This document shows, one piece after another, positions 1-62,421 of a stretch of DNA of 64,000 nt. The DNA lies in contig OZ020265.1 of NCBI GenBank assembly GCA_963971285.1, forward strand, positions 4,132,270 through 4,196,269, in the 5' to 3' direction. The DNA is from Astropecten irregularis. Its lineage: Eukaryota; Echinodermata; Asteroidea; Paxillosida; Astropectinidae. The translations under genes were made by a program, and so were the position numbers. The notes under the pieces are model-generated. The model made no database searches. It was not told the DNA's origin and saw nothing but the letters and a program-made list of their open reading frames with translations. The number at the start of each line of letters is the position of its first letter. The stretch's first letter is position 1.

Positions 1-1104
1 ATGTTTCTACCAGCACCATCTTCATGCCCTGAAAGTTATACGTAAATCTGTGAACTTTTTTGTTTTGGTTTGTTACCAATGTTGTACATGCCCTTCAAAT
101 ACTGTTAACCATTACTAAATCTTATAACATTTCTGCTCCAGTTTGGTTTTACAATCATCTGATCATAAACATGATAAATGCATTATAATCCTACAATGCA
201 TCCAACCTATGCTTTAACCTAAGGTCTTTGATATCACAACTCCTAGTCTATTGGACCGGCGCTTTCTTCAACAACATTCTTTGTCTTATTTAGAGTAAAA
301 CCAATGACCGAAAACAATTTTAGTGTTCAAAAGTGAAATACTTTTTAAAATACTAACTGAGAGAGTTTTCACTGTATTCCCCAAAATTTGACACCGTATG
401 TGACAGGGAATTTCACAGATGACTGTTATTGTATCCTTTTTATATTTTTTGCCCATGAATTTGTATTTCTTTGACAAAAACCAAAGTATGATATGACCTT
501 TAATACATAGATATTTGTCTTCATCAGGCATGCTGGATTGTGTATCCTCCACGGTCTCTTAAGGAGATGTACTCGATGGACATGATGAGGCTGAGATAAT
601 GATGACAGGAGATGAGCAGTTGAGTTGCCCAACATGGTTGCTATCCTATCAGTGATGCCCAAGTTCATTCAGACAGATGAGGTAAGAAGCTTACTTTTCT
701 GTTCTCTTTGAGTTTCTGATCTTCCTGGTAGAACAACTCTTACAAAACATGACATAACATTGCCATCTACAGACCCAATACATTCTAAATCATATGCTTT
801 GCCTCATGCACTCATGAGATAGCCATTTTGAAGCCGTCTGGGCGCAGTCATTTTGAATTTGAGTTCGTGTCTGTGAAACAAGAACACTTTGAATGGAATG
901 CCTTTCGAAGAGAGTTCTCTATGCACGCTCAAGTATGCGCGAACGGTACCTAACGCGTCTTGATGATGCTTGCAATCATTGCGTGACTGAAGTGCAGAGC
1001 GTGTGCACGCACGGTCCTAAATGAAACGCGCATTAACCGAGAGTGCTTCGGATTTTCGGGCGTATTTGGCTTCGATGACGCACCCGTATAGAACACAATG
1101 CAGT

Positions 1105-1112
1105 ATGCAAAT
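1105..1112 (+). promoter_or_regulatory. Octamer-type motif ATGCAAAT (representative copy)
   Basis: Perfect match to the octamer recognised by POU/Oct homeodomain proteins, present in B of most units. A few B copies change it (TATGCATATG in units 16, 21 and 24; TATCCAAATG in units 54, 55 and 58). An 8-mer can occur by chance and then be copied with the array, so function is unproven. Confidence 0.25.
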
Positions 1113-1152
1113 GAACGTACAAAAAACGTACAAAATTGTGGGCTTTCCATAG

Positions 1153-1166
1153 GTTTGTGCACAAAC
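1153..1166. other. 14-bp perfect palindrome in B (representative copy)
   Basis: GTTTGTGCACAAAC reads the same on both strands and recurs in most B segments. It is altered in units 2, 3, 33 and 41 and deleted in unit 58. A dimeric protein site is possible but not shown. Confidence 0.5.
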
Positions 1167-1620
1167 ATGGATGCGCCCACCAGGCATCACTTTCTACACG
1201 GAGCTAGCACTCTAGTAATTTTAATATAGCTCTATGGTATGAATATATCTGCATGTGAATAGATCTGCATATGAATTGATCTGCATATGAATAGATCTGC
1301 ATGTGAATAGATCTGCATGTGAATAGATCTGCATATATGAATAGATCTGCATATGAATTGATCTGCATATGAATAGATCTGCATGTGAATAAATCTGCAT
1401 GTGAATAGATCTGCATGTGAATAGATCTGCATGTGAATAGATCTGCATGTGAATAGATCTGCATGTGAATAGATCTGCATATGAATAGATCTGCATTTGA
1501 ATAAATCTGCATGTGAATAGATCTGGATGTGAATAGATCTGCATGTGAATAGATCTGCATATGAATAGATCTGCATTTGAATAAATCTGCATGTGAATAG
1601 ATCTGCATGTGAATAGATCT

Positions 1621-3224
1621 ACTCGTTCTGGATAAATACACCATTTCAGACGAAATTATTTTAATGATATGTTTCTACCAGCACCATCTTCATGCCCTGA
1701 AAGTTATACGTAAATCTGTGAACTTTTTTGTTTTGGTTTGTTACCAATGTTGTACATGCCCTTCAAATACTGTTAACCATTACTAAATCTTATAACATTT
1801 CTGCTCCAGTTTGGTTTTACAATCATCTGATCATAAACATGATAAATGCATTATAATCCTACAATGCATCCAACCTATGCTTTAACCTAAGGTCTTTGAT
1901 ATCACAACTCATAGTCTATTGGACCGGCGCTTTCTTCAACAACATTCTTTGTCTTATTTAGAGTAAAACCAATGACCGAAAATAATTTTGGTGTTCAGAA
2001 GTGAAGTACTTTTTAAAATACTTTTACTGAGACAGTTTTTCACTGTATTCCCAAAAATGTGACACCGTATGTGACAGGGAATATCACAGATGAGTGTTAC
2101 TGTATCTTTTTTTATATTTTTTGCCCATGAATTTGTATTTCTTTGACAAAAACCAAAGTATGATATGACCTTTAATACATAGATATTTGTCTTCATCAGG
2201 CATGCTGGATTGTGTATCCTCCACGGTCTCTTAAGGAGATGTACTCGATGGACATGATGAGGCTGAGATAATGATGACAGGAGATGAGCAGTTGAGTTGC
2301 CCAACATGGTTGCTATCCTATCAGTGATGCCCAAGTTCATTCAGACAGATGAGGTAAGAAGCTTACTTTTCTGTTCTCTTTGAGTATCTGATCTTCCTGG
2401 TAGAACAACTCTTACAAAACATGACATAACATTGCCATCTACAGACCCAATACATTCTAAATCATATGCTTTGCCTCATGCACTCATGAGATAGCCATTT
2501 TGAAGCCGTCTGGGCGCAGTCATTTTGAATTTGAGTTTGTGTCTGTGAAACAAGAACACTTTGAATGGAATGCCTTTCGAAGAGAGTTCTCTATGCAACG
2601 CTCAAGTATGCGCGAACGGTACCTAACGCGTCTTGATGATGCTTGCAATCATTGCGTGACTGAAGTGCAGAGCGTGTGCAGGCACGGTCCTAAATGAAAC
2701 GCGCATTTACCGAGGGTGCGCCGGGTCTCGGGCGTATTTGGCTTCGATGACGCACCCGTATAAAACACAATGCAGTATGCAAATGAACATACAAAAAACG
2801 TACAAAATTGTGGGCTTTCCATAGGTTTTTGCACAAACATGGATGCCCACCAGGCATCACTTTCTACACGGAGCTAGCGCTCTAGTAATTTTAATATAGC
2901 TCTATGGTATGAATAGATCTGCATGTGAATAGATCTGCATATGAATTGATCTGCATATGAATAGATCTGCATGTGAATAGATCTGCATGTGAATAGATCT
3001 GCATATGAATAGATCTGCATATGAATTGATCTGCATATGAATAGATCTGCATATGAATTGATCTGCATATGAATAGATCTGCATGTGAATAGATCTGCAT
3101 GTGAATAGATCTGCATATGAATAGATCTGCATTTGAATAAATCTGCATGTGAATAGATCTGCATGTGAATAGATCTGCATGTGAATAAATCTGCATGTGA
3201 ATAGATCTGCATGTGAATAGATCT
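1621..3224 (+). repeat. Array unit 2, full length
   Basis: A+B occupy 1621-2910 (1290 bp) and M 2911-3224 (314 bp, about 20 repeats). A+B looks identical to unit 3 at an offset of 1604 bp, which is exactly the length of this unit, so units 2 and 3 are a recent tandem duplication. The B palindrome is altered here (GGTTTTTGCACAAAC). Confidence 0.95.
2200..2353 (+). other. Exon-like island in A (representative copy)
   Basis: A 154-bp stretch is bounded by TTTGTCTTCATCAG on the left, a polypyrimidine-CAG acceptor-like signal, and by GAG followed by GTAAGA on the right, a strong donor-like match. The arrangement is kept in every copy that retains this part of A, though donor-flanking GATGAGG becomes GATGCGG in a few. 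All three + frames contain stops, so it is not a working coding exon. It may be a captured and decayed exon fragment, a non-coding exon, or chance. No product recognised. Confidence 0.3.
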
Positions 3225-4892
3225 ACTCGTTCTGGATAAATACACCATTTCAGACGAAATTATTTTAATGATATGTTTCTACCAGCACCATCTTCATGCC
3301 CTGAAAGTTATACGTAAATCTGTGAACTTTTTTGTTTTGGTTTGTTACCAATGTTGTACATGCCCTTCAAATACTGTTAACCATTACTAAATCTTATAAC
3401 ATTTCTGCTCCAGTTTGGTTTTACAATCATCTGATCATAAACATGATAAATGCATTATAATCCTACAATGCATCCAACCTATGCTTTAACCTAAGGTCTT
3501 TGATATCACAACTCATAGTCTATTGGACCGGCGCTTTCTTCAACAACATTCTTTGTCTTATTTAGAGTAAAACCAATGACCGAAAATAATTTTGGTGTTC
3601 AGAAGTGAAGTACTTTTTAAAATACTTTTACTGAGACAGTTTTTCACTGTATTCCCAAAAATGTGACACCGTATGTGACAGGGAATATCACAGATGAGTG
3701 TTACTGTATCTTTTTTTATATTTTTTGCCCATGAATTTGTATTTCTTTGACAAAAACCAAAGTATGATATGACCTTTAATACATAGATATTTGTCTTCAT
3801 CAGGCATGCTGGATTGTGTATCCTCCACGGTCTCTTAAGGAGATGTACTCGATGGACATGATGAGGCTGAGATAATGATGACAGGAGATGAGCAGTTGAG
3901 TTGCCCAACATGGTTGCTATCCTATCAGTGATGCCCAAGTTCATTCAGACAGATGAGGTAAGAAGCTTACTTTTCTGTTCTCTTTGAGTATCTGATCTTC
4001 CTGGTAGAACAACTCTTACAAAACATGACATAACATTGCCATCTACAGACCCAATACATTCTAAATCATATGCTTTGCCTCATGCACTCATGAGATAGCC
4101 ATTTTGAAGCCGTCTGGGCGCAGTCATTTTGAATTTGAGTTTGTGTCTGTGAAACAAGAACACTTTGAATGGAATGCCTTTCGAAGAGAGTTCTCTATGC
4201 AACGCTCAAGTATGCGCGAACGGTACCTAACGCGTCTTGATGATGCTTGCAATCATTGCGTGACTGAAGTGCAGAGCGTGTGCAGGCACGGTCCTAAATG
4301 AAACGCGCATTTACCGAGGGTGCGCCGGGTCTCGGGCGTATTTGGCTTCGATGACGCACCCGTATAAAACACAATGCAGTATGCAAATGAACATACAAAA
4401 AACGTACAAAATTGTGGGCTTTCCATAGGTTTTTGCACAAACATGGATGCCCACCAGGCATCACTTTCTACACGGAGCTAGCGCTCTAGTAATTTTAATA
4501 TAGCTCTATGGTATGAATAGATCTGCATGTGAATAGATCTGCATATGAATTGATCTGCATATGAATAGATCTGCATGTGAATAGATCTGCATGTGAATAG
4601 ATCTGCATATGAATAGATCTGCATATGAATTGATCTGCATATGAATAGATCTGCATATGAATTGATCTGCATATGAATAGATCTGCATGTGAATATATCT
4701 GCATGTGAATAGATCTGCATGTGAATAGATCTGCATATGAATAGATCCGCATTTGAATAAATCTGCATGTGAATAGATCTGCATGTGAATAGATCTGCAT
4801 GTGAATAAATCTGCATGTGAATAGATCTGCATGTGAATAGATCTGCATGTGAATAAATCTGCATGTGAATAGATCTGCATGTGAATAGATCT
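3225..4892 (+). repeat. Array unit 3, full length
   Basis: A+B occupy 3225-4514 (1290 bp), the near-perfect copy of unit 2. M is 4515-4892 (378 bp), 64 bp or four 16-mers longer than M of unit 2, so the minisatellite changed length after the unit duplicated. Confidence 0.95.
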
Positions 4893-11525: not shown

Positions 11526-12665
11526 ACAAGAACACTTTGAATGGAATGCCTTTCGAAGAGAGTTCTCTATGCAACGCTCAAGTATGCGCGAACGGTACCT
11601 AACGCGTCTTGATGATGCTTGCAATCATTGCGTGACTGAAGTGCAGAGCATGTGCGCGCACGGTCCTAAATGAAACGCGCATTTACCGAGGGTGAGTCGG
11701 ATTTCGGGCGTATTTGACTTCGATATCGCACCTGTATAGAGCGCAATGCAGTATGCAAATGAACATACAAAAAACGTACAAAATTGTGGGCTTTCCATAG
11801 GTTTGTGCACAAACATGGATGCGCCCACCAGGAATCACTTTCTACACGGAGCTAGCGCTCTAGTAATTTTAATATATCTCTATTATATGGTATGAATAGA
11901 TCTGCATGTGAATAGATCTGCATATGAATTTATCTGCATATGAATAGATCTGCATGTGAATAGATCTGCATGTGAATAGATCTGCATATATGAATAGATC
12001 TGCATGTGAATAGATCTGCATGTGAATATATCTGCATGTGAATAGATCTGCATGTGAATAGATCTGCATGTGAATAGAGCTGCATTTGAATAGATCTGCA
12101 TGTGAATAGATCTGCATATATGAATAGATCTGCATGTGAATAGATCTGCATGTGAATAGATCTGCATGTGAATAGATCTGCATGTGAATAGATCTGCATG
12201 TGAATAGATCTGCATGTGAATAGATCTGCATATATGAATAGATCTGCATGTGAATAGATCTGCATGTGAATATATCTGCATGTGAATAGATCTGCATGTG
12301 AATAGATCTGCATGTGAATAGAGCTGCATTTGAATAGATCTGCATGTGAATAGATCTGCATATATGAATAGATCTGCATGTGAATAGATCTGCATGTGAA
12401 TAGATCTGCATGTGAATAGATCTGCATGTGAATAGATCTGCATGTGAATAGATCTGCATGTGAATAGATCTGCATGTGAATAGATCTGCATATGAATAGA
12501 TCTGCATATATGAATAGATCTGCATGTGAATAGATCTGCATGTGAATAGATCTGCATGTGAATAGATCTGCATGTGAATAGATCTGTATGTGAATAGATC
12601 TGCATGTGAATAGAGCTGCATGTGAATAGAGCTGCATGTGAATAGATCTGCATTTGAATAGATCT
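11526..12665 (+). repeat. Array unit 8, short (B only) with the longest M
   Basis: B is 11526-11893 (368-bp subtype). M is 11894-12665 (772 bp, about 48 repeats), the longest block in the window. M has its own internal tandem period of 244 bp: a TATATC variant recurs at 12027 and 12271 and a GAGCTGCATTTG variant at 12077 and 12321. Confidence 0.95.
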
Positions 12666-14255
12666 ACTCGTTCTGGATAAATACACCATTTCAGACAAAA
12701 TTATTTTAATGATATGTTTCTACCAGCACTATCTTCATGCCCTGAATGTTATACGTAAATCTGTGAACTTTTTTGTTTTGGTTTGTTACCAATGTTGTTC
12801 ATGCCCTTCAAATACTGTTAACCATTACTTAATCTTTTAACATTTCTGCTCCAGTTTGGTTTTACAATTATCTGATCATAAACATGATAAATGCATTATA
12901 ATCCTACAATGCATCCAACCTATGCTCTAACCTAAGGTCTTTGATATCACAACTCATAGTCTATTGGACCAGCGCTTTCTTCAACACCATTCTTTGTCTT
13001 ATTTAGAGTAAAACCAATGACCGAAAACAATTTTGGTGTTCAAAAGTGAAATACTTTTTAAAATACTAACTGAGACAGTTTTTCACTGTATTGCCATAAA
13101 TTTGACTCCGTATGTGACAGGGAATTTCACAGATGACTGTTACTGTATCTTTTTTGATATTTTTTGCCCATGAATTTGCATTTCTTTGACAAAAACCAAA
13201 GTATGATATGACCTTTAATACATAGATATTTGTCTTCATCAGGCATGCTGGATTGTGTATCCTCCACGGTCACTTAAGGAGATGTACTCGATGGACATGA
13301 TGAGGCTGAGATAATGATGCCAAACATGGTTGCTATACTATCAGTGATGCCCAAGTTCATTCAGACAGATGAGGTAAGAAGCTTACTTTTCTGTTCTCTT
13401 TGAGTTTCTGATCTTCCTGGTAGAACAACTCTTACAAAACATGACATAAGATTGCCACTTACAGACCCAATACATTCTAAATCATATGCTTTGCCTCATG
13501 CACTCATGAGATAGCCATTTTAAAGGCCGTCTGGGCGCAGTCATTTTGAATTTGAGTTCGTGTCTGTGAAAGAAGAACACTTTGAATGGAATGCCTTTCG
13601 AAGAGAGTTCTCTATGCAACGCTCAATTATGCGCGAACGGTACCTAACGCATCTTGATGATGCTTGCAATCATTGCGTGACTGAAGTGCAGAGCGTGTGC
13701 ACGCACGGTCCTAAATGAAACGCGCATTTACCGAGGGTGCTTCGGATTTCGGGCGTATTTGGCTTCGATGACGCACCCGTATAGAACACAATGCAGTATG
13801 CAAATGAAAGTACAAAAAACGTACAAAATTGTGGGCTTTCCATAGGTTTGTGCACAAACATGGATGCGCCCACCAGGCATCACTTTCTACGCGGAGCTAG
13901 CACTCTAGTAATTTTAATATAGCTCTATGGTATGAATAGATCTGTATTTGAATAGATCTGAATTTGAATAGATCTGAATTTGAATAGATCTGCATTATAG
14001 ATCTGCATTTGAATAAATATGCATATGAATAGATCTGCATATGAATATATCTGCATATGAATATATCTGCATGTGAATATATCTGCATATGAATAGTTCT
14101 GCATGTGAATAGATCTGCATGAGAATCTATCTGTATATGAATAGATCTCAATTAGAATAGATCTGCATATGAATTGATCTACATATGAATAGATCTGCAT
14201 GTGAATAGATCTGCATATATTAATATATCTGCATGTGAATAGATCTGCATGTGAA
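12666..14255 (+). repeat. Array unit 9, full length with 23-bp deletion
   Basis: A+B occupy 12666-13933 (1268 bp); a 23-bp stretch is missing near 13318, inside the exon-like island. M is 13934-14255 (322 bp), contains the GCATTATAGATCTGC variant and ends at the GTGAAACAAG junction. Confidence 0.94.
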
Positions 14256-14729
14256 ACAAGAACACTTTGAATGGAATGCCTTTCGAAGAGAGTTCTCTAT
14301 GCAACGCTCAAGTATGCGCGAACGGTACCTAACGCGTCTTGATGATGCTTGCAATCATTGCGTGACTGAAGTGCAGAGCATGTGCGCGCACGGTCCTAAA
14401 TGAAACGCGCATTTACCGAGGGTGAGTCGGATTTTGGGCGTATTTGACTTCGATATCGCACCTGTATAGAGCGCAATGCAGTATGCAAATGAACGTACAA
14501 AAAACGTACAAAATTGTGGGCTTTCCATAGGTTTGTGCACAAACATGGATGCGCCCACCAGGAATCACTTTCTACACGGAGCTAGCGCTCTAGTAATTTT
14601 AATATATCTCTATTATATGGTATGAATAGATCTGCATGTGAATAGATCTGCATGTGAATAGATCTGCATGTGAATAGAGCTGCATTTGAATAGATCTGCA
14701 TGTGAATAGATCTGCATGTGAATAGATCT
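14256..14729 (+). repeat. Array unit 10, short with minimal M
   Basis: B 14256-14623 (368-bp subtype) plus M 14624-14729 (106 bp, six to seven repeats). The exit into A reads ACTTGTTCTGG rather than ACTCGTTCTGG. It recurs as units 13, 18 and 26. Confidence 0.95.
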
Positions 14730-16403
14730 ACTTGTTCTGGATAAATACACAATTTCAGACGAAATTATTTTAATGATATGTTTCTACCAGCACTATCTTC
14801 ATGCCCTGAAAGTTATACGTAAATCTGTGAACTTTTTTGTTTTGGTTTGTTACCAATGTTGTACATTCCCTTCCAGTACTGTTAACCATTACTAAATCTT
14901 ATAACATTCCAGTTTGGTTTTACAATCATCTGATCATAAACATGATAAATGCATTATAATCCTACAATGCATCCAACCTATGCTTTAACCTAAGGTCTTT
15001 GATATCACATCTCATAGTCTATTGGACTGGCGCTTTCTTCAACACCATATCTTTGTCTTATTTAGAGTAAAACCAATGACCGAAAACAATTTTGGTGTTC
15101 AAAAGAGAAATACTTTTTAAAATACTAATTGAGAGAGTTTTTCACTGCATTCACAAAAATTTGACACCGTATGTGACAGGGACTTTCACAGATGACTGTT
15201 AATGTATCTTTTTTGATATTTTTTGCCCATGAATTTGCATTTCTTTGACAAAAACCAAAGTATGATATGACCTTTAATACATAGATATTTGTCTTCATCA
15301 GGCATGCTGGATTGTGTATCCTCCACGGTCTCTTAAGGAGATGTACTCGATGAGGCTGAGATAATGATGACAGGAGATGAGCAGTTGAGTTGCCCAACAT
15401 GGTTGCTATACTATCAGTGATGCCCAAGTTCATTCAGACAGATGCGGTAAGAAGCTTACTTTTCTGTTCTCTTTGAGTTTCTGATCTTCCTGGTAGAACA
15501 ACTCTTACAAAACATGACATAACATTGCCATCTACAGACCCAATACATTCTAAATCATATGCTTTCCCTCATGCACTCATGAGATAGTCATTTTGAAGCC
15601 GTCTGGGCGCAGTCATTTTGAATTTGAGTTCGTGTCTGTGAAACAAGAACACTTTGAATGGAATGCCTTTCGAAGAGAGTTCTCTATGCACGCTCAAGTA
15701 TGCGCGAACGGTACCTAACGCGTCTTGATGATGCTTGCAATCATTTCGTGACTGAAGTGCAGAGCGTGTGCGCGCACGGTCCTAAATGAAACGCGCATTT
15801 ACCGAGGGTGAGTCGGATTTCGGGCGTATTTGGCTTCGATGACGCACCTGTATAGAACACAATGCAGTATGCAAATGAACGTACAAAAAACGTACAAAAT
15901 TGTGGGCTTTCCATAGGTTTGTGCACAAACATGGATACGCCCACCAGGCATCACTTTCTACACGGAGCTAGCGCTCTAGTAATTTTAATATAGCTCTATG
16001 GTATGAATAGGTCTGCATGTGAATAGATCTGCATATGAATTGATCTGCATATGAAAATATCTGCATGTGAATATATCTGCATGTGAATAGATCTGCATAT
16101 TATGAATAGATCTGCATGTGAATAGATCTGTATGTGAATAGATCTGCATGTGAATAGATCTGCATGTGAATAGATCTGCATGTGAATAGATCTGCATATG
16201 AAAAGATCTGCATGTGAATAGATCTGCATGTGAATAGATCTGCATATATGAATAGATCTGCATGTGAATAGATCTGTATGTGAATAGATCTGCATGTGAA
16301 TAGATCTGCATGTGAATAGATCTGCATGTGAATAGATCTGCATGTGAATAGATCTGCATGTGAATAGATCTGCATGTAAATAGATCTGCATGTGAATAGA
16401 TCT
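14730..16403 (+). repeat. Array unit 11, full length
   Basis: A+B occupy 14730-16004 (1275 bp). Small A deletions are visible: TCTGCT is missing before CCAGTTTGG near 14909, and 9 bp are missing from the GATGGACATGATGAGG stretch near 15350. M is 16005-16403 (399 bp). Unit 14 is its near-identical copy 3761 bp to the right. Confidence 0.95.
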
Positions 16404-18016
16404 ACTCGTTCTCGATAAATGCACCATTTCAGACGAAATTATTTGAATGATATGTTTCTACCAGCACTATCTTCATGCCCTGAATGTTATACGTAAATCT
16501 GTGAACTTTTTTGTTTTGGTTTGTTACCAATGTTGTACATGCCCTTCAAATACTGTTAACCATTACTAAATCTTTTAACATTTCTGCTCCAGTTTGGTTT
16601 TACAATTATCTGATCATAAACATGATAAATGCATTATAATCCTACAATGCATCCAACCTATGCTCTAACCTAAGGTCTTTGATATCACAACTCATAGTCT
16701 ATTGGACCAGCGCTTTCTTCAACACCATTCTTTGTCTTATTTAGAGTAAAACCAATGACCGAAAACAATTTTGGTTTTCAAAAGTGAAATACTTTTTAAA
16801 ATACTAACTGAGACAGTTTTTCACTGTATTGCCATAAATTTGACTCCGTATGTGACAGGGAATTTCACAGATGACTGTTACTGTATCTTTTTTGATATTT
16901 TTTGCCCATGAATTTGCATTTCTTTGACAAAAACCAAAGTATGATATGACCTTTAATACATAGATATTTGTCTTCATCAGGCATGCTAGATTGTGTATCC
17001 TCCACGGTCTCTTAAGGAGATGTACTCGATGGACATGATGAGGCTGAGATAATGATGACAGGAGATGAGCAGTTGAGTTGCCCAACATGGTTGCTATACT
17101 ATCAGTGATGCCCAAGTTCATTCAGACAGATGAGGTAAGAAGCTTACTTTTCTGTTCTCTTTGAGTTTCTGATCTTCCTGGTAGAACAACTCTTACAAAA
17201 CATGACATAAGATTGCCACTTACAGACCCAATACATTCTAAATCATATGCTTTGCCTCATGCACTCATGAGATAGCCATTTTAAAGGCCGTCTGGGCGCA
17301 GTCATTTTGAATTTGAGTTCGTGTCTGTGAAAGAAGAACACTTTGAATGGAATGCCTTTCGAAGAGAGTTCTCTATGCAACGCTCAATTATGCGCGAACG
17401 GTACCTAACGCATCTTGATGATGCTTGCAATCATTGCGTGACTGAAGTGCAGAGCGTGTGCACGCACGGTCCTAAATGAAACGCGCATTTACCGAGGGTG
17501 CTTCGGATTTCGGGCGTATTTGGCTTCGATGACGCACCCGTATAGAACACAATGCAGTATGCAAATGAAAGTACAAAAAACGTACAAAATTGTGGGCTTT
17601 CCATAGGTTTGTGCACAAACATGGATGCGCCCACCAGGCATCACTTTCTACGCGGAGCTAGCACTCTAGTAATTTTAATATAGCTCTATGGTATGAATAG
17701 ATCTGTATTTGAATAGATCTGAATTTGAATAGATCTGAATTTGAATAGATCTGCATTATAGATCTGCATTTGAATAAATATGCATATGAATAGATCTGCA
17801 TATGAATATATCTGCATATGAATATATCTGCATGTGAATATATCTGCATATGAATAGTTCTGCATGTGAATAGATCTGCATGAGAATCTATCTGTATATG
17901 AATAGATCTCAATTAGAATAGATCTGCATATGAATTGATCTACATATGAATAGATCTGCATGTGAATAGATCTGCATATATTAATATATCTGCATGTGAA
18001 TAGATCTGCATGTGAA
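16404..18016 (+). repeat. Array unit 12, full length
   Basis: A+B occupy 16404-17694 (1291 bp) and M 17695-18016 (322 bp). B and M match unit 9 and A matches unit 15, so this unit spans the boundary between the two copies of the 3761-bp repeat. Confidence 0.95.
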
Positions 18017-18490
18017 ACAAGAACACTTTGAATGGAATGCCTTTCGAAGAGAGTTCTCTATGCAACGCTCAAGTATGCGCGAACGGTACCTAACGCGTCT
18101 TGATGATGCTTGCAATCATTGCGTGACTGAAGTGCAGAGCATGTGCGCGCACGGTCCTAAATGAAACGCGCATTTACCGAGGGTGAGTCGGATTTTGGGC
18201 GTATTTGACTTCGATATCGCACCTGTATAGAGCGCAATGCAGTATGCAAATGAACGTACAAAAAACGTACAAAATTGTGGGCTTTCCATAGGTTTGTGCA
18301 CAAACATGGATGCGCCCACCAGGAATCACTTTCTACACGGAGCTAGCGCTCTAGTAATTTTAATATATCTCTATTATATGGTATGAATAGATCTGCATGT
18401 GAATAGATCTGCATGTGAATAGATCTGCATGTGAATAGAGCTGCATTTGAATAGATCTGCATGTGAATAGATCTGCATGTGAATAGATCT
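18017..18490 (+). repeat. Array unit 13, short
   Basis: B 18017-18384 (368 bp) and M 18385-18490 (106 bp). Copy of unit 10 at an offset of 3761 bp. Confidence 0.95.
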
Positions 18491-20164
18491 ACTTGTTCTG
18501 GATAAATACACAATTTCAGACGAAATTATTTTAATGATATGTTTCTACCAGCACTATCTTCATGCCCTGAAAGTTATACGTAAATCTGTGAACTTTTTTG
18601 TTTTGGTTTGTTACCAATGTTGTACATTCCCTTCCAGTACTGTTAACCATTACTAAATCTTATAACATTCCAGTTTGGTTTTACAATCATCTGATCATAA
18701 ACATGATAAATGCATTATAATCCTACAATGCATCCAACCTATGCTTTAACCTAAGGTCTTTGATATCACATCTCATAGTCTATTGGACTGGCGCTTTCTT
18801 CAACACCATATCTTTGTCTTATTTAGAGTAAAACCAATGACCGAAAACAATTTTGGTGTTCAAAAGAGAAATACTTTTTAAAATACTAATTGAGAGAGTT
18901 TTTCACTGCATTCACAAAAATTTGACACCGTATGTGACAGGGACTTTCACAGATGACTGTTAATGTATCTTTTTTGATATTTTTTGCCCATGAATTTGCA
19001 TTTCTTTGACAAAAACCAAAGTATGATATGACCTTTAATACATAGATATTTGTCTTCATCAGGCATGCTGGATTGTGTATCCTCCACGGTCTCTTAAGGA
19101 GATGTACTCGATGAGGCTGAGATAATGATGACAGGAGATGAGCAGTTGAGTTGCCCAACATGGTTGCTATACTATCAGTGATGCCCAAGTTCATTCAGAC
19201 AGATGCGGTAAGAAGCTTACTTTTCTGTTCTCTTTGAGTTTCTGATCTTCCTGGTAGAACAACTCTTACAAAACATGACATAACATTGCCATCTACAGAC
19301 CCAATACATTCTAAATCATATGCTTTCCCTCATGCACTCATGAGATAGTCATTTTGAAGCCGTCTGGGCGCAGTCATTTTGAATTTGAGTTCGTGTCTGT
19401 GAAACAAGAACACTTTGAATGGAATGCCTTTCGAAGAGAGTTCTCTATGCACGCTCAAGTATGCGCGAACGGTACCTAACGCGTCTTGATGATGCTTGCA
19501 ATCATTTCGTGACTGAAGTGCAGAGCGTGTGCGCGCACGGTCCTAAATGAAACGCGCATTTACCGAGGGTGAGTCGGATTTCGGGCGTATTTGGCTTCGA
19601 TGACGCACCTGTATAGAACACAATGCAGTATGCAAATGAACGTACAAAAAACGTACAAAATTGTGGGCTTTCCATAGGTTTGTGCACAAACATGGATACG
19701 CCCACCAGGCATCACTTTCTACACGGAGCTAGCGCTCTAGTAATTTTAATATAGCTCTATGGTATGAATAGGTCTGCATGTGAATAGATCTGCATATGAA
19801 TTGATCTGCATATGAAAATATCTGCATGTGAATATATCTGCATGTGAATAGATCTGCATATTATGAATAGATCTGCATGTGAATAGATCTGTATGTGAAT
19901 AGATCTGCATGTGAATAGATCTGCATGTGAATAGATCTGCATGTGAATAGATCTGCATATGAAAAGATCTGCATGTGAATAGATCTGCATGTGAATAGAT
20001 CTGCATATATGAATAGATCTGCATGTGAATAGATCTGTATGTGAATAGATCTGCATGTGAATAGATCTGCATGTGAATAGATCTGCATGTGAATAGATCT
20101 GCATGTGAATAGATCTGCATGTGAATAGATCTGCATGTAAATAGATCTGCATGTGAATAGATCT
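18491..20164 (+). repeat. Array unit 14, full length
   Basis: A+B 18491-19765 (1275 bp) and M 19766-20164 (399 bp). Copy of unit 11, sharing its private A deletions and the GCATATTATGAATAG variant in M. Confidence 0.95.
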
Positions 20165-21792
20165 ACTCGTTCTCGATAAATGCACCATTTCAGACGAAAT
20201 TATTTGAATGATATGTTTCTACCAGCACTATCTTCATGCCCTGAATGTTATACGTAAATCTGTGAACTTTTTTGTTTTGGTTTGTTACCAATGTTGTACA
20301 TGCCCTTCAAATACTGTTAACCATTACTAAATCTTTTAACATTTCTGCTCCAGTTTGGTTTTACAATTATCTGATCATAAACATGATAAATGCATTATAA
20401 TCCTACAATGCATCCAACCTATGCTCTAACCTAAGGTCTTTGATATCACAACTCATAGTCTATTGGACCAGCGCTTTCTTCAACACCATTCTTTGTCTTA
20501 TTTAGAGTAAAACCAATGACCGAAAACAATTTTGGTTTTCAAAAGTGAAATACTTTTTAAAATACTAACTGAGACAGTTTTTCACTGTATTGCCATAAAT
20601 TTGACTCCGTATGTGACAGGGAATTTCACAGATGACTGTTACTGTATCTTTTTTGATATTTTTTGCCCATGAATTTGCATTTCTTTGACAAAAACCAAAG
20701 TATGATATGACCTTTAATACATAGATATTTGTCTTCATCAGGCATGCTAGATTGTGTATCCTCCACGGTCTCTTAAGGAGATGTACTCGATGGACATGAT
20801 GAGGCTGAGATAATGATGACAGGAGATGAGCAGTTGAGTTGCCCAACATGGTTGCTATACTATCAGTGATGCCCAAGTTCATTCAGACAGATGAGGTAAG
20901 AAGCTTACTTTTCTGTTCTCTTTGAGTTTCTGATCTTCCTGGTAGAACAACTCTTACAAAACATGACATAAGATTGCCACTTACAGACCCAATACATTCT
21001 AAATCATATGCTTTGCCTCATGCACTCATGAGATAGCCATTTTAAAGGCCGTCTGGGCGCAGTCATTTTGAATTTGAGTTCGTGTCTGTGAAAGAAGAAC
21101 ACTTTGAATGGAATGCCTTTCGAAGAGAGTTCTCTATGCAACGCTCAATTATGCGCGAACGGTACCTAACGCATCTTGATGATGCTTGCAATCATTGCGT
21201 GACTGAAGTGCAGAGCGTGTGCACGCACGGTCCTAAATGAAATGCGCATTTACCGAGGGTGCTTCGGATTTCGGGCGTATTTGGCTTCGATGACGCACCC
21301 GTATAGAACACAATGCAGTATGCAAATGAAAGTACAAAAAACGTACAAAATTGTGGGCTTTCCATAGGTTTGTGCACAAACATGGATGCGCCCACCAGGC
21401 ATCACTTTCTACGCGGAGCTAGCACTCTAGTAATTTTAATATAGCTCTATGGTATGAATAGATCTGTATGTGAATAGATCTGTATTTGAATAGATCTGAA
21501 TTTGATAGATCTGAATTTGAATAGATCTGCATTATAGATCTGCATATGAATAAATATGCATATGAATATATCTGCATATGAATATATCTGCATATGAATA
21601 GATCTGCATGTGAATATATCTGCATATGAATAGATCTGCATGTGAATAGATCTGCATGAGAATCTATCTGTATATGAATAGATCTCAATTAGAATAGATC
21701 TGCATATGAATTGATCTACATATGAATAGATCTGCATGTGAATAGATCTGCATATATTAATAGATCTGCATGTGAATAGATCTGCATGTGAA
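20165..21792 (+). repeat. Array unit 15, full length
   Basis: A+B 20165-21455 (1291 bp) and M 21456-21792 (337 bp). Matches unit 12 up to about 21240. From there it carries an AAATGCGCATTT variant and a different M (with GAATTTGATAGATCT), both shared with units 20 and 23. Confidence 0.95.
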
Positions 21793-38583: not shown

Positions 38584-40325
38584 ACTTGTTCTGGATAAAT
38601 ACACAATTTCAGACGAAATTATTTTAATGATATGTTTCTACCAGCACTATCTTCATGCCCTGAAAGTTATACGTAAATCTGTGAACTTTTTTGTTTTGGT
38701 TGGTTACCAATGTTGTACATGCCCTTCCAGTACTGTTAACCATTACTAAATCTTATAACATTTCTGCTCCAGTTTGGTTTTACAATCATCTGATCATAAA
38801 CATGATAAATGCATTATAATCCTACAATGCATCCAACCTTTGCTTTAACCTAAGGTCTTTGATATCACAACTCATAGTCTATTGGACTGGCGCTTTCTTC
38901 AACACCATTCTTTGTCTTATTTAGAGTAAAACCAATGACCGAAAACAATTTTGGTGTTCAAAAGAGAAATACTTTTTAAAATACTAATTGAGAGAGTTTT
39001 TCACTGTATTCACAAAAATTTGACACCGTATGTGACAGGGACTTTCACAGATGACTGTTAATGTATCTTTTTTGATATTTTTTGCCCATGAATTTGCATT
39101 TCTTTGACAAAAACCAAAGTATGATATGACCTTTAATACATAGATATTTGTCTTCATTAGGCATGCGCGATTGTGTATCCTCCACGGTCTCTTAAGGAGA
39201 TGTACTCGATGGACATGATGAGGCTGAGATAATGATGACAGGAGATGAGCAGTTGAGTTGCCCAACATGGTTGCTATACTATCAGTGATGCCCAAGTTCA
39301 TTCAGACAGATGCGGTAAGAAGCTTACTTTTCTGTTCTCTTTGAGTTTCTGATCTTCCTGGTAGAACAACTCTTACAAAACATGACATAACATTGCCATC
39401 TACAGACCCAATACATTCTAAATCATATGCTTTGCCTCATGCACTCATGAGATAGTCATTTTAAAGCCGTCTGGGCGCAGTCATTTTGAATTTGAGTTCG
39501 TGTCTGTGAAACAAGAACACTTTGAATGGAATGCCTTTCGAAGAGAGTTCTTTATGCACGCTCAAGTATGCGCGAACGGTACCTAACGCGTCTTGATGAT
39601 GCTTGCAATCATTGCGTGACTGAAGTGCAGAGCGTGTGCGCGCACGGTCCTAAATGAAACGCGCATTTACCGAGGGTGAGTCGGATTTCGGGCGTATTTG
39701 GCTTCGATGACGCACCTGTATAGAACACAATGCAGTATGCAAATGAATGCGCGCACGGTCCTAAATGAAACGCGCATTAACCGAGGGTGAGTCGGATTTC
39801 GGGCGTATTTGGCCTGATGACGCACCTGTATAGAACACAATGCAGTATGCAAATTAACGTACAAAAAACGTACAAAATTGTGGGCTTTCCATAGGTTTGT
39901 GCACAAACATGGATGCGCCCACCAGGCATCACTTTCTACACGGAGCTAGCGCTCTAGTAATTTTAATATAGCTCTATGGTATGAATAGGTCTGCATGTGA
40001 ATAGATCTGCATATGAATTGATCTGCATATGAAAATATCTGCATGTGAATATATCTGCATGTGAATAGATCTGCATATATGAATAGATCTGCATGTGAAT
40101 AGATCTGTATGTGAATAGATCTGCATGTGAATAGATCTGCATGTGAATATATCTGCATATGAATAGATCTGCATGTGAATAGATCTGCATGAGAATATAT
40201 CTGTATATGAATAGATCTCAATTAGAATAGATCTGCATATGAATTGATCTACATATGAATAGATCTGCATGTGAATAGATCTGCATATATTAATAGATCT
40301 GCATGTGAATAGATCTGCATGTGAA
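38584..40325 (+). repeat. Array unit 32, full length with duplicated B segment
   Basis: A+B 38584-39982 (1399 bp). About 110 bp of B is tandemly duplicated: the stretch starting TGCGCGCACGG occurs at 39637 and again at 39748. M is 39983-40325 (343 bp). Confidence 0.95.
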
Positions 40326-54873: not shown

Positions 54874-55472
54874 ACAAGAACACTTTGAATGGAATGCCTT
54901 TCGAAGAGAGTTCTCTATGCAACGCTCAAGTATGCGCGAACGGTACCTAACGCGTCTTGATGATGCTCGCAATCATTGCGTGACTGAAGTGCAGAGCGTG
55001 TGCGCGCACGGTCCTAAATGAAACGCGCATTTACCGAGGGTGAGTCGGATTTCGGGCCTATTTGGCTTCGATATCGCACCTGTATAGAACACAATGCAGT
55101 ATGCAAATGAACGTACAAAAAACGTACAAAATTGTGGGCTTTCCATAGGTTTGTGCACAAACATGGATGCGCCCACCATGCATCACTTTCTACACGGAGC
55201 TAGCACTCTGGTAATTTTAATATAGCTCTATGGTATGAATAGATCTGCATGTGAATAGATCTGCATATGAATTGATCTGCATATGAATAGATCTGCATGT
55301 GAATATATCTGCATATATGAATAGATCTGCATGTAAATAGATATGCATGTGAACATATCTGCATGAGAACATATCTGCATGTGAATAGATCTGTATGTGA
55401 ATAGATCTGCATGTGAATAGAGCTGCATGTGAATAGATCTGCATGTGAATAGATCTGCATGTGAATAGATCT
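54874..55472 (+). repeat. Array unit 49, short
   Basis: B 54874-55236 (363 bp) and M 55237-55472 (236 bp). Confidence 0.95.
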
Positions 55473-57477
55473 ACTCGTTCTGGATAAATACACCATTTCA
55501 GACGAAATTATTTGAATGATATGTTTCTACCAGCACCATCTTCATGCCCTGAAAGTTATACGTTAATCTGTGAACTTTTTTGTTTTGGTTTGTTACCAAT
55601 GTTGTACATGCCCTTCAAATACTGTTAACCATTACCAAATCTTATAACATTTCTGCTCCAGTTTGGTTTTACAATCATCTGATCATAAACATGATAAATG
55701 CATTATAATCCTACAATGCATCCAACCTATGCTTTAACCTAAGGTCTTTGATATCACAACTCATAGGGCGTTTTCGAAACGGAGGCTCAGGCTCCGTTTC
55801 AGGCTCCGGCTCCATTTCGTGAATCCATTCTAATACAATGGGCATCAAAATAGAGACTTTTGGCTGCGGTTCTGAAGTAGATTCTCTAGTATGAAAAGGA
55901 AAATAGAGCTTCAGCTTCAATGAAAAACCACAACCTATATTTTCAGCATATGGATGTCAGCGCTGAAGCCTGAGCCTGAGCCTAAGCCTCTGTTTCGAAA
56001 AGGCCCATAGTCTATTGGACCGGCGCTTTCTTCAACAACATTCTTTGTTTTATTTAGAGTAAAACCAATGACCGAAAACAATTTTGGTGTTCAAAAGTGA
56101 AGTACTTTTTAAAATACTTTTACTGAGACAGTTTTTCACTGTATTCCCAAAAATTTGACACCGTATGTGACAGGGAATTTCACAGATGAGTGTTACTGTA
56201 TCTTTTTTTATATATTTTGCCCATGAATTTGCATTTCTTTGACAAAAACCAAAGTATGATATGACCTTTAATACATAGATATTTGTCTTCATCAGGCAAG
56301 CTGGATTGTGTATCCTCCACGGTCTCTTAAGGAGATGTACTCGATGGACATGATGAGGTTGAGAAAATGATGACAGGAGATGAGCAGTTGAGTTTCCCAA
56401 CATGGTTGCTATACTATCAGTGATGCCCAAGTTCATTCAGACAGATGAGGTAAGAAGCTTACTTTTCTGTTCTCTTTGAGTTTCTGATCTTCCTGGTAGA
56501 ACAACTCTTACAAAACATGACATAACATTGCCATCTACAGACCCAATACATTCTAAATCATATGCTTTGCCTCATGCACTCATGAGATAGCCATTTTGAA
56601 GCCATCTGGGTGCAGTCATTTTGAATTTGAGTTCGTGTCTGTGAAACAAGAACACTTTGAATGGAATCCCTTTCGAAGAGAGTTCTCTATGCACGCTCAA
56701 GTATGCCCGAACGGTACCTATAGAACACAATGCAGTATGCAAATGAACGTACAAAAAACGTACAAAATTGTGGGCTTTCCATAGGTTTGTGCACAAACAT
56801 GGATGCGCCCACCAGGCATCACTTTCTACACGGAGCTAGCACTCTAGTAATTTTAATATAGCTCTATGTTATGAATATTTCTGTATGTGAATAGATATGT
56901 ATTTGAATAGATCTGAATTTGAATAGATCTGAATTTGAATAGATCTGCATATGAATAGATCTGCATGTGAATAGATCTGCATATGAATATGTCTGCATGT
57001 GAATAGATCTGCATGTGAATCTATCTGTATATGAATAGATCTCAATTTGAATAGATCTACATATGAATAGATCTCCATGTGAATAGATCTGCATGTGAAT
57101 TGATCTGCATATATGAATAGATCTGCATGTGAATAGATCTGCATGTGAATAGATCTGCATATATGAATAGATCTGCATGTGAATAGATCTGCATGTGAAT
57201 AGATCTGCATATATGAATAGATCTGCATGTGAATAGATCTGCATGTGAATAGATCTGCATATGAATATGTCTGCATGTGAATAGATCTGCATGTGAATCT
57301 ATCTGTATATGAATAGATCTCAATTTGAATAGATCTACATATGAATAGATCTCCATGTGAATAGATCTGCATGTGAATTGATCTGCATATATGAATAGAT
57401 CTGCATGTGAATAGATCTGCATGTGAATAGATCTGCATATATGAATAGATCTGCATGTGAATAGATCTGCATGTGAA
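55473..57477 (+). repeat. Array unit 50, with MITE-like insertion and B deletion
   Basis: Segment 55473-56872: A is interrupted by a 241-bp insertion at 55766-56006, and B lacks about 134 bp between GGTACC and TATAGAACAC at 56720. M is 56873-57477 (605 bp) with an internal 278-bp duplication (ATGAATATGTCTG at 56983 and 57261). Confidence 0.94.
55766..56006. mobile_element. MITE-like non-autonomous DNA transposon, 241 bp
   Basis: This sequence occurs once in the window and splits A at a site that reads CTCATAGTCTATTGG, uninterrupted, in the other units that carry this part of A. The ends are imperfect terminal inverted repeats of about 31 bp: the left end starts GGGCGTTTTCGAAAC, and the right end read on the other strand starts GGGCCTTTTCGAAAC, with about four mismatches. 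The insertion is flanked by ATA on both sides (55763-55765 and 56007-56009); an alternative reading is a 5-bp CATAG duplication with ends one base further in. Subterminal GGCTC-rich direct repeats occur on both sides. It encodes no transposase. Family is not assigned; a 3-bp duplication would fit PIF/Harbinger-like elements, but that is inference. Confidence 0.85.
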
Positions 57478-57774
57478 ACAAGAACACTTTGAATGGAATG
57501 CCTTTCGAAGAGAGTTCTCTATGCAACGCACAAGTATGCGAGAACGGTACCTAACGCGTCTTTGGTATGAATAGAACACAATGCAGTATGCAAATGAACG
57601 TACAAAAAACGTACAAAATTGTGGGCTTTCCATAGGTTTGTGCACAAACATGGCATCACTTTCTACATGGAGCTAGTGCTGTAGTAATTTTAATATAGCT
57701 CTATGGTATGAATAGATCTGCATGTGAATAGATCTGCATATGAATTGATCTGCGTATGAATATATCTGCATGTG
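57478..57774 (+). repeat. Array unit 51, strongly deleted
   Basis: B remnant 57478-57709 (232 bp): after GCGTCTTTGG it jumps to TATGAATAGAACACAATG, and ACATGGCATCAC lacks the ATGCGCCCACCAGG stretch. M is only 57710-57774 (65 bp, four repeats). Confidence 0.92.
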
Positions 57775-58689
57775 TTTTTCACTGTATTCCCAAAAATTTG
57801 ACACCGTATGTGACAGGGAATTTCACAGATGACTGTTACTGTATCTTTTTTGATATTTTTTGCCAATAAATTTGCATTTCTTTGACAAAAACCAAAGTAT
57901 GATATGACCTTTAATACATAGATATTTGTCTTCATCAGGCATGCTGGATTGTGTTTCCTCCACGGTCACTTAAGAAGATGTACTCGATGGACATGATGAG
58001 GCTGAGATAATGATGACAGGAGATGAGCAGTTGAGTTGCCCAACATGGTTGCTATCCTATCAGTGATGCCCAAGTTCATTCAGACAGATGAGGTAAGAAG
58101 CTTACTTTTCTGTTCTCTTTGAGTTTCTGATCTTCCTGGTAGAACAACTCTTACAAAACATGACATAACATTGCCATCTACAGACCCAATACATTCTAAA
58201 TCATATGCTTTGCCTCATGCACTCATGAGATAGCCATTTTGAAGCCGTCTGGGCGCAGTCATTTTGAATTTGAGTTCGTGTCTGTGAAACAAGAACACTT
58301 CGAATGGAATGCCTTTCGAAGAGAGTTCTCTATGCACGCTCAAGTATGCGCGAACGGTACCTAACGCGTCTTGATGATGCTTCCAATCATTGCGTGACTG
58401 AAGTGCAGAGCGTGTGCACGCACGGTCCTAAATTAAACGCGCATTTACCGAGGGTGAGTCGGATTTCGGGCGTATTTGGCTTCGATGACGCACCCGTATA
58501 GAACACAATGCAGTATGCAAATGAACATACAAAAAACGTACAAAATGGTGGGCTTTCCTTAGGTTTGTGCACAAACATGGATGCGCCCACCAGGCATCAC
58601 ATATGAATAGATCTGCATGTGAATAGATCTGCATGTGAATAGATCTGCATATATGAATAGATCTGCATGTGAATAGATCTGCATGTGAA
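57775..58689 (+). repeat. Array unit 52, A 3' part plus B, minimal M
   Basis: M of unit 51 joins A at TTTTTCACTGTATTCCC, so the first about 430 bp of A are missing. A/B run 57775-58599, and B ends at GGCATCAC without its usual ACGGAGCTAGC tail. M is 58600-58689 (90 bp). Confidence 0.92.
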
Positions 58690-59377
58690 ACAAGAACACT
58701 TTGAATGGAATGCCTTTCGAAGAGAGTTCTCTATGCAACGCTCAAGTATGCGCGAACGGTACCTAACGCGTCTTGATGATGCTTGCAATCATTGCGTGAC
58801 TGAAGTGCAGAGCATGTGCACACACGGTCCTAAATGAAACGCGCATTTACCGAGGGTGCGTCGGATTTCGGGCGTATTTGGCTTCGATGACGCATCCGTA
58901 TAGAACACAATGGAGTATGCAATGGAACGTACAAAAAACGTACAAAATTGTGGGCTTTCCATAGGTTTGTGCACAAACATGGATGCGCCCACCAGGCATC
59001 ACTTTCTACACGGAGCTAGCACTCTAGTAATTTTAATATAGCTCTATGGTATGAATAGATCTGTATGTGAATATATTTGTATTTGAATAGATCTGAATTT
59101 GAAAAGATCTGAATTTGAATATATCTGCATATGAATTGATCTGCATATGAATATATCTGCATATGAATAGATCCGCATGTGAATATATCTGCATATGAAT
59201 AGATCTGCATGTGAATAGATCTGCATGTGAATCTATCTGTATATGAATAGATCTCAATTTGAATAGATCTGCATATGAATTGATCTACATATGAATAGAT
59301 CTGCATGTGAATATATCTGCATGTGAATATATCTGCATATATGAATAGATCTGCATGTGAATAGATCTGCATGTGAA
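58690..59377 (+). repeat. Array unit 53, short
   Basis: B 58690-59052 (363 bp) and M 59053-59377 (325 bp, GAATTTGAA-rich at its left end). Confidence 0.95.
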
Positions 59378-59907
59378 ACAAGAATGGAATGCCTTTCGAA
59401 GAGAGTTCTCTATGCAACGGTCAAGTATGCGCGAACGGTACGTAACGCGTCTTGATGATGCTTGCAATCATTGCGTGACTGAAGTGCAGAGCGTGTGCGC
59501 GCACGGTCCTAAATGAAACGCGCATTTAACGAGGGTGAGTCGGATTTCGGGCGTATTTGGCTTCGATATCGCACCTGTATAGAACACAATGCAGTATCCA
59601 AATGAACGTACAAAAAACGTACAAAATTTTGGGCTTTCCATAGGTTTGTGCACAAACATGGATGCGCCCACCAGGCATCACTTTCTACACGGAGCTAGCA
59701 CTCTAGTAATTTTAATATAGCTCTATGGTATGAATAGATCTGTATGTGAATAGATCTGAATTTGAATAGATCTGAATTTGAATAGATCTGCATTATAGAT
59801 CTGCATATGAATAGATCTGCATATGAATAGATCTGCATGTGAATAGATCTGCATATGAATAGATCTGCATGTGAATAGATCTGCATGTGAATAGAGCTGC
59901 ATGTGAA
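59378..59907 (+). repeat. Array unit 54, short
   Basis: B 59378-59731 (354 bp; 9 bp lost between two GAA at its start, giving ACAAGAATGG) and M 59732-59907 (176 bp). Confidence 0.94.
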
Positions 59908-60558
59908 ACAAGAACACTTTGAATGGAATGCCTTTCGAAGAGAGTTCTCTATGCAACGCTCAAGTATGCACGAACGGTACCTAACGCGTCTTGATGATGC
60001 TTGCAATCATTGCGTGACTGAAGTGCAGAGCATGTGCACGCACGGTCCTAAATGAAACGCGCATTTACCGAGGGTGCGTCGGATTTCGGGCGTATTTGGC
60101 TTCGATATCGCACCTGTATAGAACACAATGCAGTATCCAAATGAACGTACAAAAAACATACAAAATTGTGGGCTTTCCATAGGTTTGTGCACAAACATGG
60201 ATGCGCCCACCAGGCATCACTTTCTACACGGAGCTAGCACTCTAGTAATTTTAATATAGCTTTATGGTATGAATAGATCTGTATGTGAATAGATCTGTAT
60301 GTGAATAGATCTGTATTTGAATAGATCTGAATTTGAATAGATCTGAATTTGAATAGATCTGAATTTGAATAGATCTGCATTATAGATCTGCATATGAATA
60401 GATCTGCATGTGAATATATCTGCATATGAATAGATCTGCATGTGAATAGATCTGTATGTGAATCTATCTGTATATGAATAGATCTCAATTTGAATAGATC
60501 TGCATATGAATAGATCTGAACGCGCATAGATCTGCATGTGAATAGAGCTGCATGTGAA
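59908..60558 (+). repeat. Array unit 55, short
   Basis: B 59908-60270 (363 bp) and M 60271-60558 (288 bp). The end of M contains an irregular GAACGCGCATAG repeat. Confidence 0.95.
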
Positions 60559-61049
60559 ACAAGAACACTTTGAATGGAATGCCTTTCGAAGAGAGTTCTC
60601 TATGCAACGCTCAAGTATGCGCGAACGGTACCTAACGCGTCTTGATGATACTTGCAATCATTGCATGACTGAAGTGCAGAGCGTGTGCACGCACGGTCCT
60701 AAATGAAACGCGCACTCTAGTAATTTTAATATAGCTCTATGGTATGAATAGATCTGTATGTGAATAGATCTGTATTTGAATAGATCTGAATTTGAATAGA
60801 TCTGCATTATAGATCTGCATAAGAATAGATCTGCATGTGAATATATCTGCATATGAATAGATCTGCATGTGAATAGATCTGCATGTGAATCTATCTGTAT
60901 ATGAATAGATCTCAATTTGAATAGATCTGCATATGAATAGATCTGCATATGAATTGATCTACATATGAATAGATCTGCATGTGAATAGATCTGCATGTGA
61001 ATAGATCTGCATGTGAATATATCTGCATGTGAATAGAGCTGCATGTGAA
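60559..61049 (+). repeat. Array unit 56, short with B deletion
   Basis: B 60559-60745 (187 bp) lacks 176 bp: AACGCGCA joins CTCTAGTAATT at 60715 with GCA shared by both breakpoints. M 60746-61049 (304 bp). Confidence 0.94.
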
Positions 61050-61753
61050 ACAAGAACACTTTGAATGGAATGCCTTTCGAAGAGAGTTCTCTATGCAATG
61101 CTCAAGTATGCGCGAACGGTACCTAACGCGTCTTGATGATGCTTGCAATCATTGCGTGACTGAAGTGCAGAGCATGTGCACGCACGGTCCTAAATGAAAC
61201 GCGCATTTACCGAGGGTGCGTCGGATTTCGGGCGTATTTGGCTTCGATGACGCACCCGTATAGAACACAATGCAGTATACAAATGAACGTACAAAAAACA
61301 TACAAAATTGTGGGCTTTCCATAGGTTTGTGCACAAACATGGATGCGCCCACCAGGCATCACTTTCTACACGGAGCTAGCACTCTAGTAATTTTAATATA
61401 GCTCTATGGTAGGAATAGATCTGTATGTGAATAGATTTGTATTTGAATAGATCTGCATTTGAATAGATCTGAATTTGAATAGATCTGCATATGAATAGAT
61501 CTGTATATGAATATATCTGCATATGAATAGATCTGCATATGAATAGATCTGCATGTGAATAGATCTGCATGTGAATAGATCTGCATGTGAATCTATCTGC
61601 ATGTGAATCTATCTGTATATGAATAGATCTCAATTTGAATAGATCTGCATATGAATTGATCTACATATGAATAGATCTACATGTGAATATATCTGCATGT
61701 GAATAGATCTGCATTTATGAATAGATCTGCATGTGAATAGATCTGCATGTGAA
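61050..61753 (+). repeat. Array unit 57, short
   Basis: B 61050-61412 (363 bp) and M 61413-61753 (341 bp). Confidence 0.95.
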
Positions 61754-62347
61754 ACAAGAACAGTTTGAATGGAATGCCTTTCGAAGAGAGTTCTCTATGC
61801 AACGCTCAAGTATGCGCGAACGGTACCTAACGCGTCTTGATGATGCTTGCAATCATTGCGTGACTGAAGTGCAGAGCGTGTGCCCGCACGGTCCTAAATT
61901 AAACGCGCATTTAACGAGGGTGAGTCGGATTTCGGGCGTATTTGGCTTCGATATCGCACCTGTATAGAACACAATGCAGTATCCAAATGAACGTACAAAA
62001 AACGTACAAAATTGTGGACAAAACATGGATGCACCCACCAGGCATCACTTTCTGCACGGAGCTAGCGCTCTAGTAATTTTAATATAGCTCTATGGTATGA
62101 ATAGATCTGCATGTGAATAGATCTGCATATGAATTGATCTGCATGTGAATTGATCTGCATGTGAATAGATCTGCATATGAATTGATATGCATATGAATAG
62201 ATCTGCATGTGAATAGATCTGCATGTGAATAGATCTGCATGTATGAATAGATCTGGATGTGAATAGATCTGCATGTGAATAGATCTGCATGTGAATATAT
62301 CTGCATGTGAATAGATCTGCATGTGAATAGATGTGCGTGTGAATAGA
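61754..62347 (+). repeat. Array unit 58, last unit of the array
   Basis: B 61754-62098 (345 bp; 18 bp including the palindrome are lost near 62018, giving GTGGACAAAACATGG) and M 62099-62347 (about 16 repeats). The final repeats decay (GATGTGCGTGTGAATAGA) before unrelated sequence begins. Confidence 0.93.
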
Positions 62348-62400
62348 CCTTTGCCACGCACTAGATGCAGAAAAAATGCATGGAACAACATTGCGACCTC
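62348..62400. other. Non-array flank between satellite and retrotransposon
   Basis: 53 bp unlike A, B or M. It holds a short ATGCA/TGCAT inverted repeat around an A-rich spacer. This is the only visible sample of host sequence outside the array and the retrotransposon. Confidence 0.7.
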
Positions 62401-62420
62401 TATTATTATTATTATTATTA
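62401..62420 (-). repeat. (TAA)n tail of the retrotransposon
   Basis: About seven TTA/TAT triplets on the + strand, read as (TAA)n on the minus strand directly after the element's 3' untranslated region. An AATAAA lies just before it on the minus strand. Short tandem tails instead of poly(A) are known from several non-LTR clades such as the I group. Confidence 0.8.
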
Positions 62421-62421
62421 T

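Follow-up and report, generated by a model that had tools for sequence, protein, structure and literature searches.

The stretch of 64 kb of DNA that was analysed here, referred to as the window, is filled from position 1 to 62347 by a tandem array that runs in one direction on the plus strand. Since the array opens within a copy of spacer A at base 1, it extends to the left beyond the window. The array was decomposed by blastn, using as queries the 926-bp spacer A (1620–2545) and the 364-bp spacer B (2546–2909) of unit 2, both on the plus strand. This yielded 32 A blocks, 55 B blocks and 58 blocks of a 16-bp minisatellite (M), all in the same direction. The M blocks lie between 1240 and 62347, comprise 17,832 bp in total and are 65 to 781 bp long each; for instance, the block M02 (2910–3223, plus strand) contains 20 repeats. 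TRF detected the 16-mer TGAATAGATCTGCATG all along the array, with scores of the 16-bp arrays (102 to 1316) that are far above chance. Moreover, blastn found no minus-strand self-matches (E <= 1e-3, words of 11 bases), a search that short inverted repeats would escape. Near full length was found for 25 of the 32 A blocks, among them one that is cut by the window start and one with an insertion, and the remaining seven are truncated, while 45 of the 55 B blocks are 340–380 bp long. The units span about 0.5–2.1 kb, with about 1.4–2.1 kb for those composed of A, B and M and mostly about 0.7 kb for those composed of B and M alone, and the majority is shorter than 2 kb. The mean pairwise divergence is 2.6% among 25 A copies and 3.5% among 45 B copies. 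The decomposition and the self-comparison of the window bear out what had been read from the sequence alone, namely a satellite of large units with an internal minisatellite, whose length changes at both scales. The range given for M in that reading (65–772 bp) also agrees with ours apart from the block boundaries.

The two spacers differ in base composition, B being rich in CpG (observed/expected 1.25) and A being poor (0.40), and they may have had different origins or different methylation. Variable sites are enriched at CpG (34 of 72 bases, compared to 140 of 1218 other bases; Fisher p = 6e-13) and 25 of the 34 are transitions, which suggests CpG methylation in the germline. Taken together with the reverse transcriptase frame described below, this points to DNA of an animal. 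No tRNA and no tmRNA was found in the window, and Rfam revealed no family at gathering score in the 64 kb, the best weak match being located in unit 2 (E = 0.89). The consensus of M is free of stops in all three frames of the minus strand, which explains the long minus-strand open reading frames in M. A zf-CCHH match in the translation of M reached 36.9 bits at a cut-off of 22.7 bits, yet no single stretch passes, and the match was rejected as a repeat artefact. A 30-base pattern of M had 0 exact matches in viral contigs.

To the right of the array, a minus-strand frame for a reverse transcriptase (62707–63999; Pfam RVT_1, E = 1.5e-29), which is open at the window end, comes after some 50 bp of different sequence and a stretch rich in ATT (62401–62422). 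By its look, the element at 62400–63999 would be a non-LTR retrotransposon, of which the ATT-rich stretch may be the 3' tail. The reverse transcriptase had no match in the PDB at E <= 0.001, and reverse-transcriptase patterns matched 11 stretches in viral contigs, none of which was confirmed. Within the array, one A copy carries an insertion of about 241 bp (55766–56006), for which inverted ends (GGGCGTTTTCGAAAC and GTTTCGAAAAGGCCC) were recognised by eye, as well as what may be a target duplication (ATA). The insertion has the look of a small non-autonomous DNA transposon.

Two classes of units

The sequence-only reading had described an A-B-M unit that is repeated 58 times in one orientation. 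The 58 M blocks and the single direction were recovered, but the array is composed of 32 A-type units and 26 B-M units without A. In line with these numbers, A follows 31 of the M blocks, B directly follows 26 and one M block marks the array end. The two classes are zoned. All seven units to the left of 11.2 kb are of the A-type, and 14 A-type and 13 B-M units are located between 11.2 and 41.8 kb. From 41.8 up to 57.7 kb, there are ten A-type and six B-M units, and the right edge comprises one A-type and seven B-M units. The terminal part (58686–62347, plus strand) consists exclusively of B-M units, some of which have a truncated B. The B-M right edge could either be ancestral or the product of loss.

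The junctions between the blocks are highly uniform. M is joined to the same point of A in 30 of 31 cases. Likewise, 25 of the 26 M-to-B junctions fall at the same point, 22 of them being identical to the letter and three having one changed base in the last M repeat; at the remaining junction, the first 17 bp of B are absent. Because 25 of 26 junctions share one point, the B-M units are probably of single origin, and one origin followed by spreading is the simplest reading. The end of M (GCATG|TGAA) and the end of A (GTCTG|TGAA) have TGTGAA in common, and this motif could have been the joining point. Most likely, the B-M class would go back to a single illegitimate event, in which an M repeat was fused at TGTGAA to the boundary between A and B, and the B-M units would then have spread through block duplication.

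The seven truncated A copies are all located between 43.7 and 58.3 kb. An identical deletion from A113 to B145 with an AAGA filler is present in three units (45019, 49908 and 51537), and a junction of A566 to M occurs twice (53229 and 54616). The deletions that are shared by units are single deletions that were spread by duplication. One B copy contains an internal tandem duplication of 111 bp (39637–39854), the two parts of which are 97% alike.

Block duplication and length change in the minisatellite

When the window was compared with itself by blastn, 16 repeats of 600 bp or more proved to be exact. Of these, the longest (4159 bp, offset 3761) is a tandem duplication of several units on the plus strand (13323–21242), in which the stretch 13323–17481 is identical to 17084–21242. 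Further exact repeats have offsets of, for example, 7951, 2933, 1604 and 2215. Moreover, near-exact blocks of up to 6.9 kb are 97.7% identical, and the majority of the block copies is inexact, with 0.7–3.6% differences. The array changes at three levels, which are the multi-unit blocks, M and substitutions. The two-level picture that had been proposed from the sequence is incomplete in this respect, as it contained neither the two unit classes nor the copying of blocks that comprise one unit or several. Homology-based duplication and deletion of blocks, either by unequal crossing-over or by template switching in replication or repair, would be the main mode of change, and the breakpoints may fall at any place in the unit, including M. 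Unequal exchange is the agent that we infer from this pattern, and gene conversion could imitate part of the exchanges. The array would be kept up neutrally rather than by a function.

It had also been claimed that M varies over its whole length range among units with nearly identical A and B. For units 2 and 3, the observation is correct. Their A and B are identical (1290 bp), and M03 (4514–4891, plus strand; 24 repeats, 378 bp) exceeds M02 (314 bp) by 64 bp, which correspond to four 16-mers. As a general statement, however, the claim does not hold for close pairs. M usually travels with the blocks: of 18 pairs of the same class with flanks (2 × 350 bp) that are less than 0.4% apart, 15 agree in the length of M to within 2 bp, and 64 bp is the maximum difference. 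Altogether, 790 same-class pairs, which are not independent of each other, were compared, and the 760 pairs with a flank divergence below 10% were binned, the rest being dropped. M of equal length was found in 10 of 11 pairs (<0.15%), 5 of 7 (0.15–0.4%), 8 of 31 (0.4–1%), 2 of 55 (1–2%), 8 of 95 (2–3%), 5 of 314 (3–4.5%) and 5 of 247 (4.5–10%). The wide length range of M sits mostly between more diverged units. An exception in favour of the claim is the longest block M08 (11884–12664, plus strand; 781 bp), which is 33 repeats apart from M16 (245 bp) with only six substitutions in 2 × 500 bp of flank. This contrast, which speaks against a merely moderate rate, indicates that single large jumps in M do happen quickly.

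The density of indels is higher in M than in the flanks in six of seven bins, in most of them about two- to threefold. From the bin below 0.15% up to 3–4.5%, the values for M and the flanks are 0.63 and 0.26, 2.35 and 0.00, 3.90 and 1.20, 6.44 and 2.91, 9.17 and 4.00, and 14.97 and 6.98 indels/kb, respectively. The relation is reversed in the 4.5–10% bin (16.07 indels/kb in M and 38.91 in the flanks), probably because aligned truncated spacers inflate the count of the flanks. M has its own extra mutability, which is real but moderate, and the hypervariability that had been claimed is not supported. Along 30 nearest-relative edges, 21 indels were identified in M, of which five comprise one repeat, five comprise two repeats and 11 comprise 4 to 33 repeats. 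With about half of the indels being at least four repeats long, simple slippage is insufficient as an explanation. Furthermore, exact internal repeats are present in M08 (291 bp, offset 244), M34 (147 bp) and M50 (244 bp). Block copying of the same kind as at the unit level, beyond single-step slippage alone, shapes M. Further changes within M, in which one to about thirty 16-mers are duplicated or deleted, would build up at a moderate rate.

The variant maps of 1132 repeats revealed M lineages that are tied to what comes next, as well as recombinants. The cleanest recombinant is M19 (25769–26106, plus strand). On its left side, 1970 bp of flank and 97 bp of M match exactly to the M27 locus, and on its right side, 255 bp of M and 1441 bp of flank match exactly to the M22 locus. 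The two parental matches overlap by 14 bp, which places the breakpoint in 25852–25865. M07 and M32 are also recombinant within M, albeit less clean than M19, and a second clean template switch lies inside a spacer A (27457–27547, plus strand). The levels interact, as exchange also passes through M. Of the two processes that had been proposed for M, slippage or exchange, the latter is supported and the former is not supported as the main process. The clean separation of unit-level and 16-mer-level change is contradicted by template switches that occur within M as well as within A and B.

Alternative explanations

Two alternative explanations concern the nature of the unit. A contains an exon-like piece of 131–154 bp, which is preceded by AG and followed by GTAAGA in 26 of 26 copies, and the diversity in and near this piece is below that of parts of A. 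Judged from these signals, A might be a spliced exon and the array a tandemly copied piece of a gene or a transcribed locus. However, all 26 copies of the piece are interrupted by stops in each of the three frames, two A peptides had no match in Pfam and the match of an antisense open reading frame of A (PapG_C, E = 0.029) stays under the cut-off. Moreover, only 89 of 924 sites of A are variable among 24 copies, and the invariance of the splice-like signals is therefore weak evidence. It is thus very unlikely that A is such an exon, and the same is true for the variant in which A harbours a working non-coding exon, each copied A unit of the transcribed array adding an exon and M serving as a variable linker. 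It is just as hard to believe that the unit derives from a Helitron- or foldback-like mobile element that contained the minisatellite and was amplified in tandem. Such elements do bear short tandem arrays, and their connection to satellites has been described in oyster and Drosophila (PMC7492417), but inspection of the boundaries of A and B by eye revealed neither terminal inverted repeats nor Helitron-type ends, and the A peptides that were tried showed no protein family in Pfam.

The other two alternatives concern the pattern of duplication and exchange. The main uncertainty is whether all exact block copies are true or some of them stem from errors of the assembly, in which a repeat graph was looped or collapsed. 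In favour of such errors, the exact overlap of 4159 bp and others of 1–2 kb stand amid copies that are usually 2.6% (A) to 3.5% (B) apart. Indirect evidence against them is that most block copies differ by 0.7–3.6%, as expected of older duplications, and that the recombinants are all distinct from one another. A partial artefact is improbable. M could also be a recombination hotspot that provokes the exchange at the unit level, in which case both levels would have one cause. For this speak the recombinants M19, M07 and M32 and the painting of the array with a copying model, in which template switches are denser in M than in A or B at both jump costs. At a jump cost of 40, there are 77 switches (42 in M, 22 in A and 13 in B; 2.36, 0.86 and 0.69 per kb), and at a cost of 24, there are 89 (46, 29 and 14; 2.58, 1.13 and 0.74 per kb), the excess of M over A and B being about 3.0-fold and 2.7-fold, respectively. 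However, when six arrays were simulated with uniform breakpoints, the ratio of M to spacer was 2.77, 7.29, 3.59, 3.94, 1.97 and 1.10, and it was 5.41, 5.98 and 7.60 in three arrays simulated with a fourfold hotspot; the rates in these simulations were guesses, a single unit class without truncations was modelled, and the hotspot-free arrays had 26–46 switches compared to 77 in the real array. As the observed ratio of about 3.0 falls inside the hotspot-free range (1.10–7.29), the excess can be explained by detection bias together with the indels of M itself. Moreover, nearest templates disagree in 10 of 37 cases across M and in 17 of 108 across five spacer comparisons, in which units were reused (p = 0.145), and in the homogenised core (11.2–41.8 kb), a hand count assigned 5 of 15 switches to M, which makes up about 27% of the stretch. 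With an A alignment lacking the insertion-bearing copy, Mantel r is 0.26 across M before A and 0.63 across M before B, and it ranges from -0.06 to 0.57 for five spacer comparisons about 200–300 bp apart. For the 62-kb array, a hotspot in M is supported neither by Mantel linkage and nearest-template agreement nor by painting and simulation, and we regard it as unlikely.

Relation to known tandem repeats

In view of this evidence, the window probably holds a non-coding macrosatellite array, probably of an animal, with two interleaved classes of units, each closed by the 16-bp minisatellite, which changes mainly by block duplication and deletion. The array is ordinary in kind, as it is another macrosatellite with an internal variable repeat and no new kind of system. 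According to PMC3491370, macrosatellites mostly have units over 2 kb, and the 3.8–5.7 kb units of mouse Dxz4 differ through an internal repeat, which is about 900 bp in size and present in one to three copies. Mouse Dxz4 is a published precedent for a macrosatellite with an internal variable repeat. Both arrays have large units in tandem, whose length varies by an internal tandem repeat and whose divergence amounts to a few percent. By contrast, the array described here has a 16-bp minisatellite of 5–49 repeats and two unit classes. The length of its units follows M (65–781 bp) and is also altered by loss of the whole spacer A. Furthermore, its units are longer than 500 bp, are arranged head to tail in one direction and are alike along the array, and PMC12692304 likewise reports a composite structure and monomers that exceed 500 bp for composite and macrosatellite DNA. 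Only the variant maps of M, which make the history readable, set the array apart from macrosatellites in general.

Subrepeats within a larger tandem unit are also found in the spacers of rDNA, where unequal crossing-over and conversion homogenise them (PMC2590618). However, no ribosomal RNA was detected here by Rfam at gathering score in the 64 kb, which speaks against an rDNA spacer. The more distant parallels are the oyster Helentron elements and the amphioxus mirage minisatellites. In the former, a short tandem array is enclosed by two non-repeated flanks, but they are dispersed mobile elements (PMC7492417), and element ends were not seen by eye in the present array. The latter share splice-like signals in repeats and length change but are short and located at intron-exon boundaries in genes (PMC3087553), whereas a gene was not found in the 62-kb array. 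Among the papers listed in literature searches, no report of the array was found.

The apparent hotspot in the minisatellite calls for caution, because it may stem from detection bias, which was reproduced by simulation. The array provides a legible record of nested tandem-repeat change within 62 kb, in which one can read block duplications of various ages and a recombinant minisatellite, as well as a class of units seemingly derived from one junction. Moreover, the change of the minisatellite can be timed against the substitutions in the flanking spacers.
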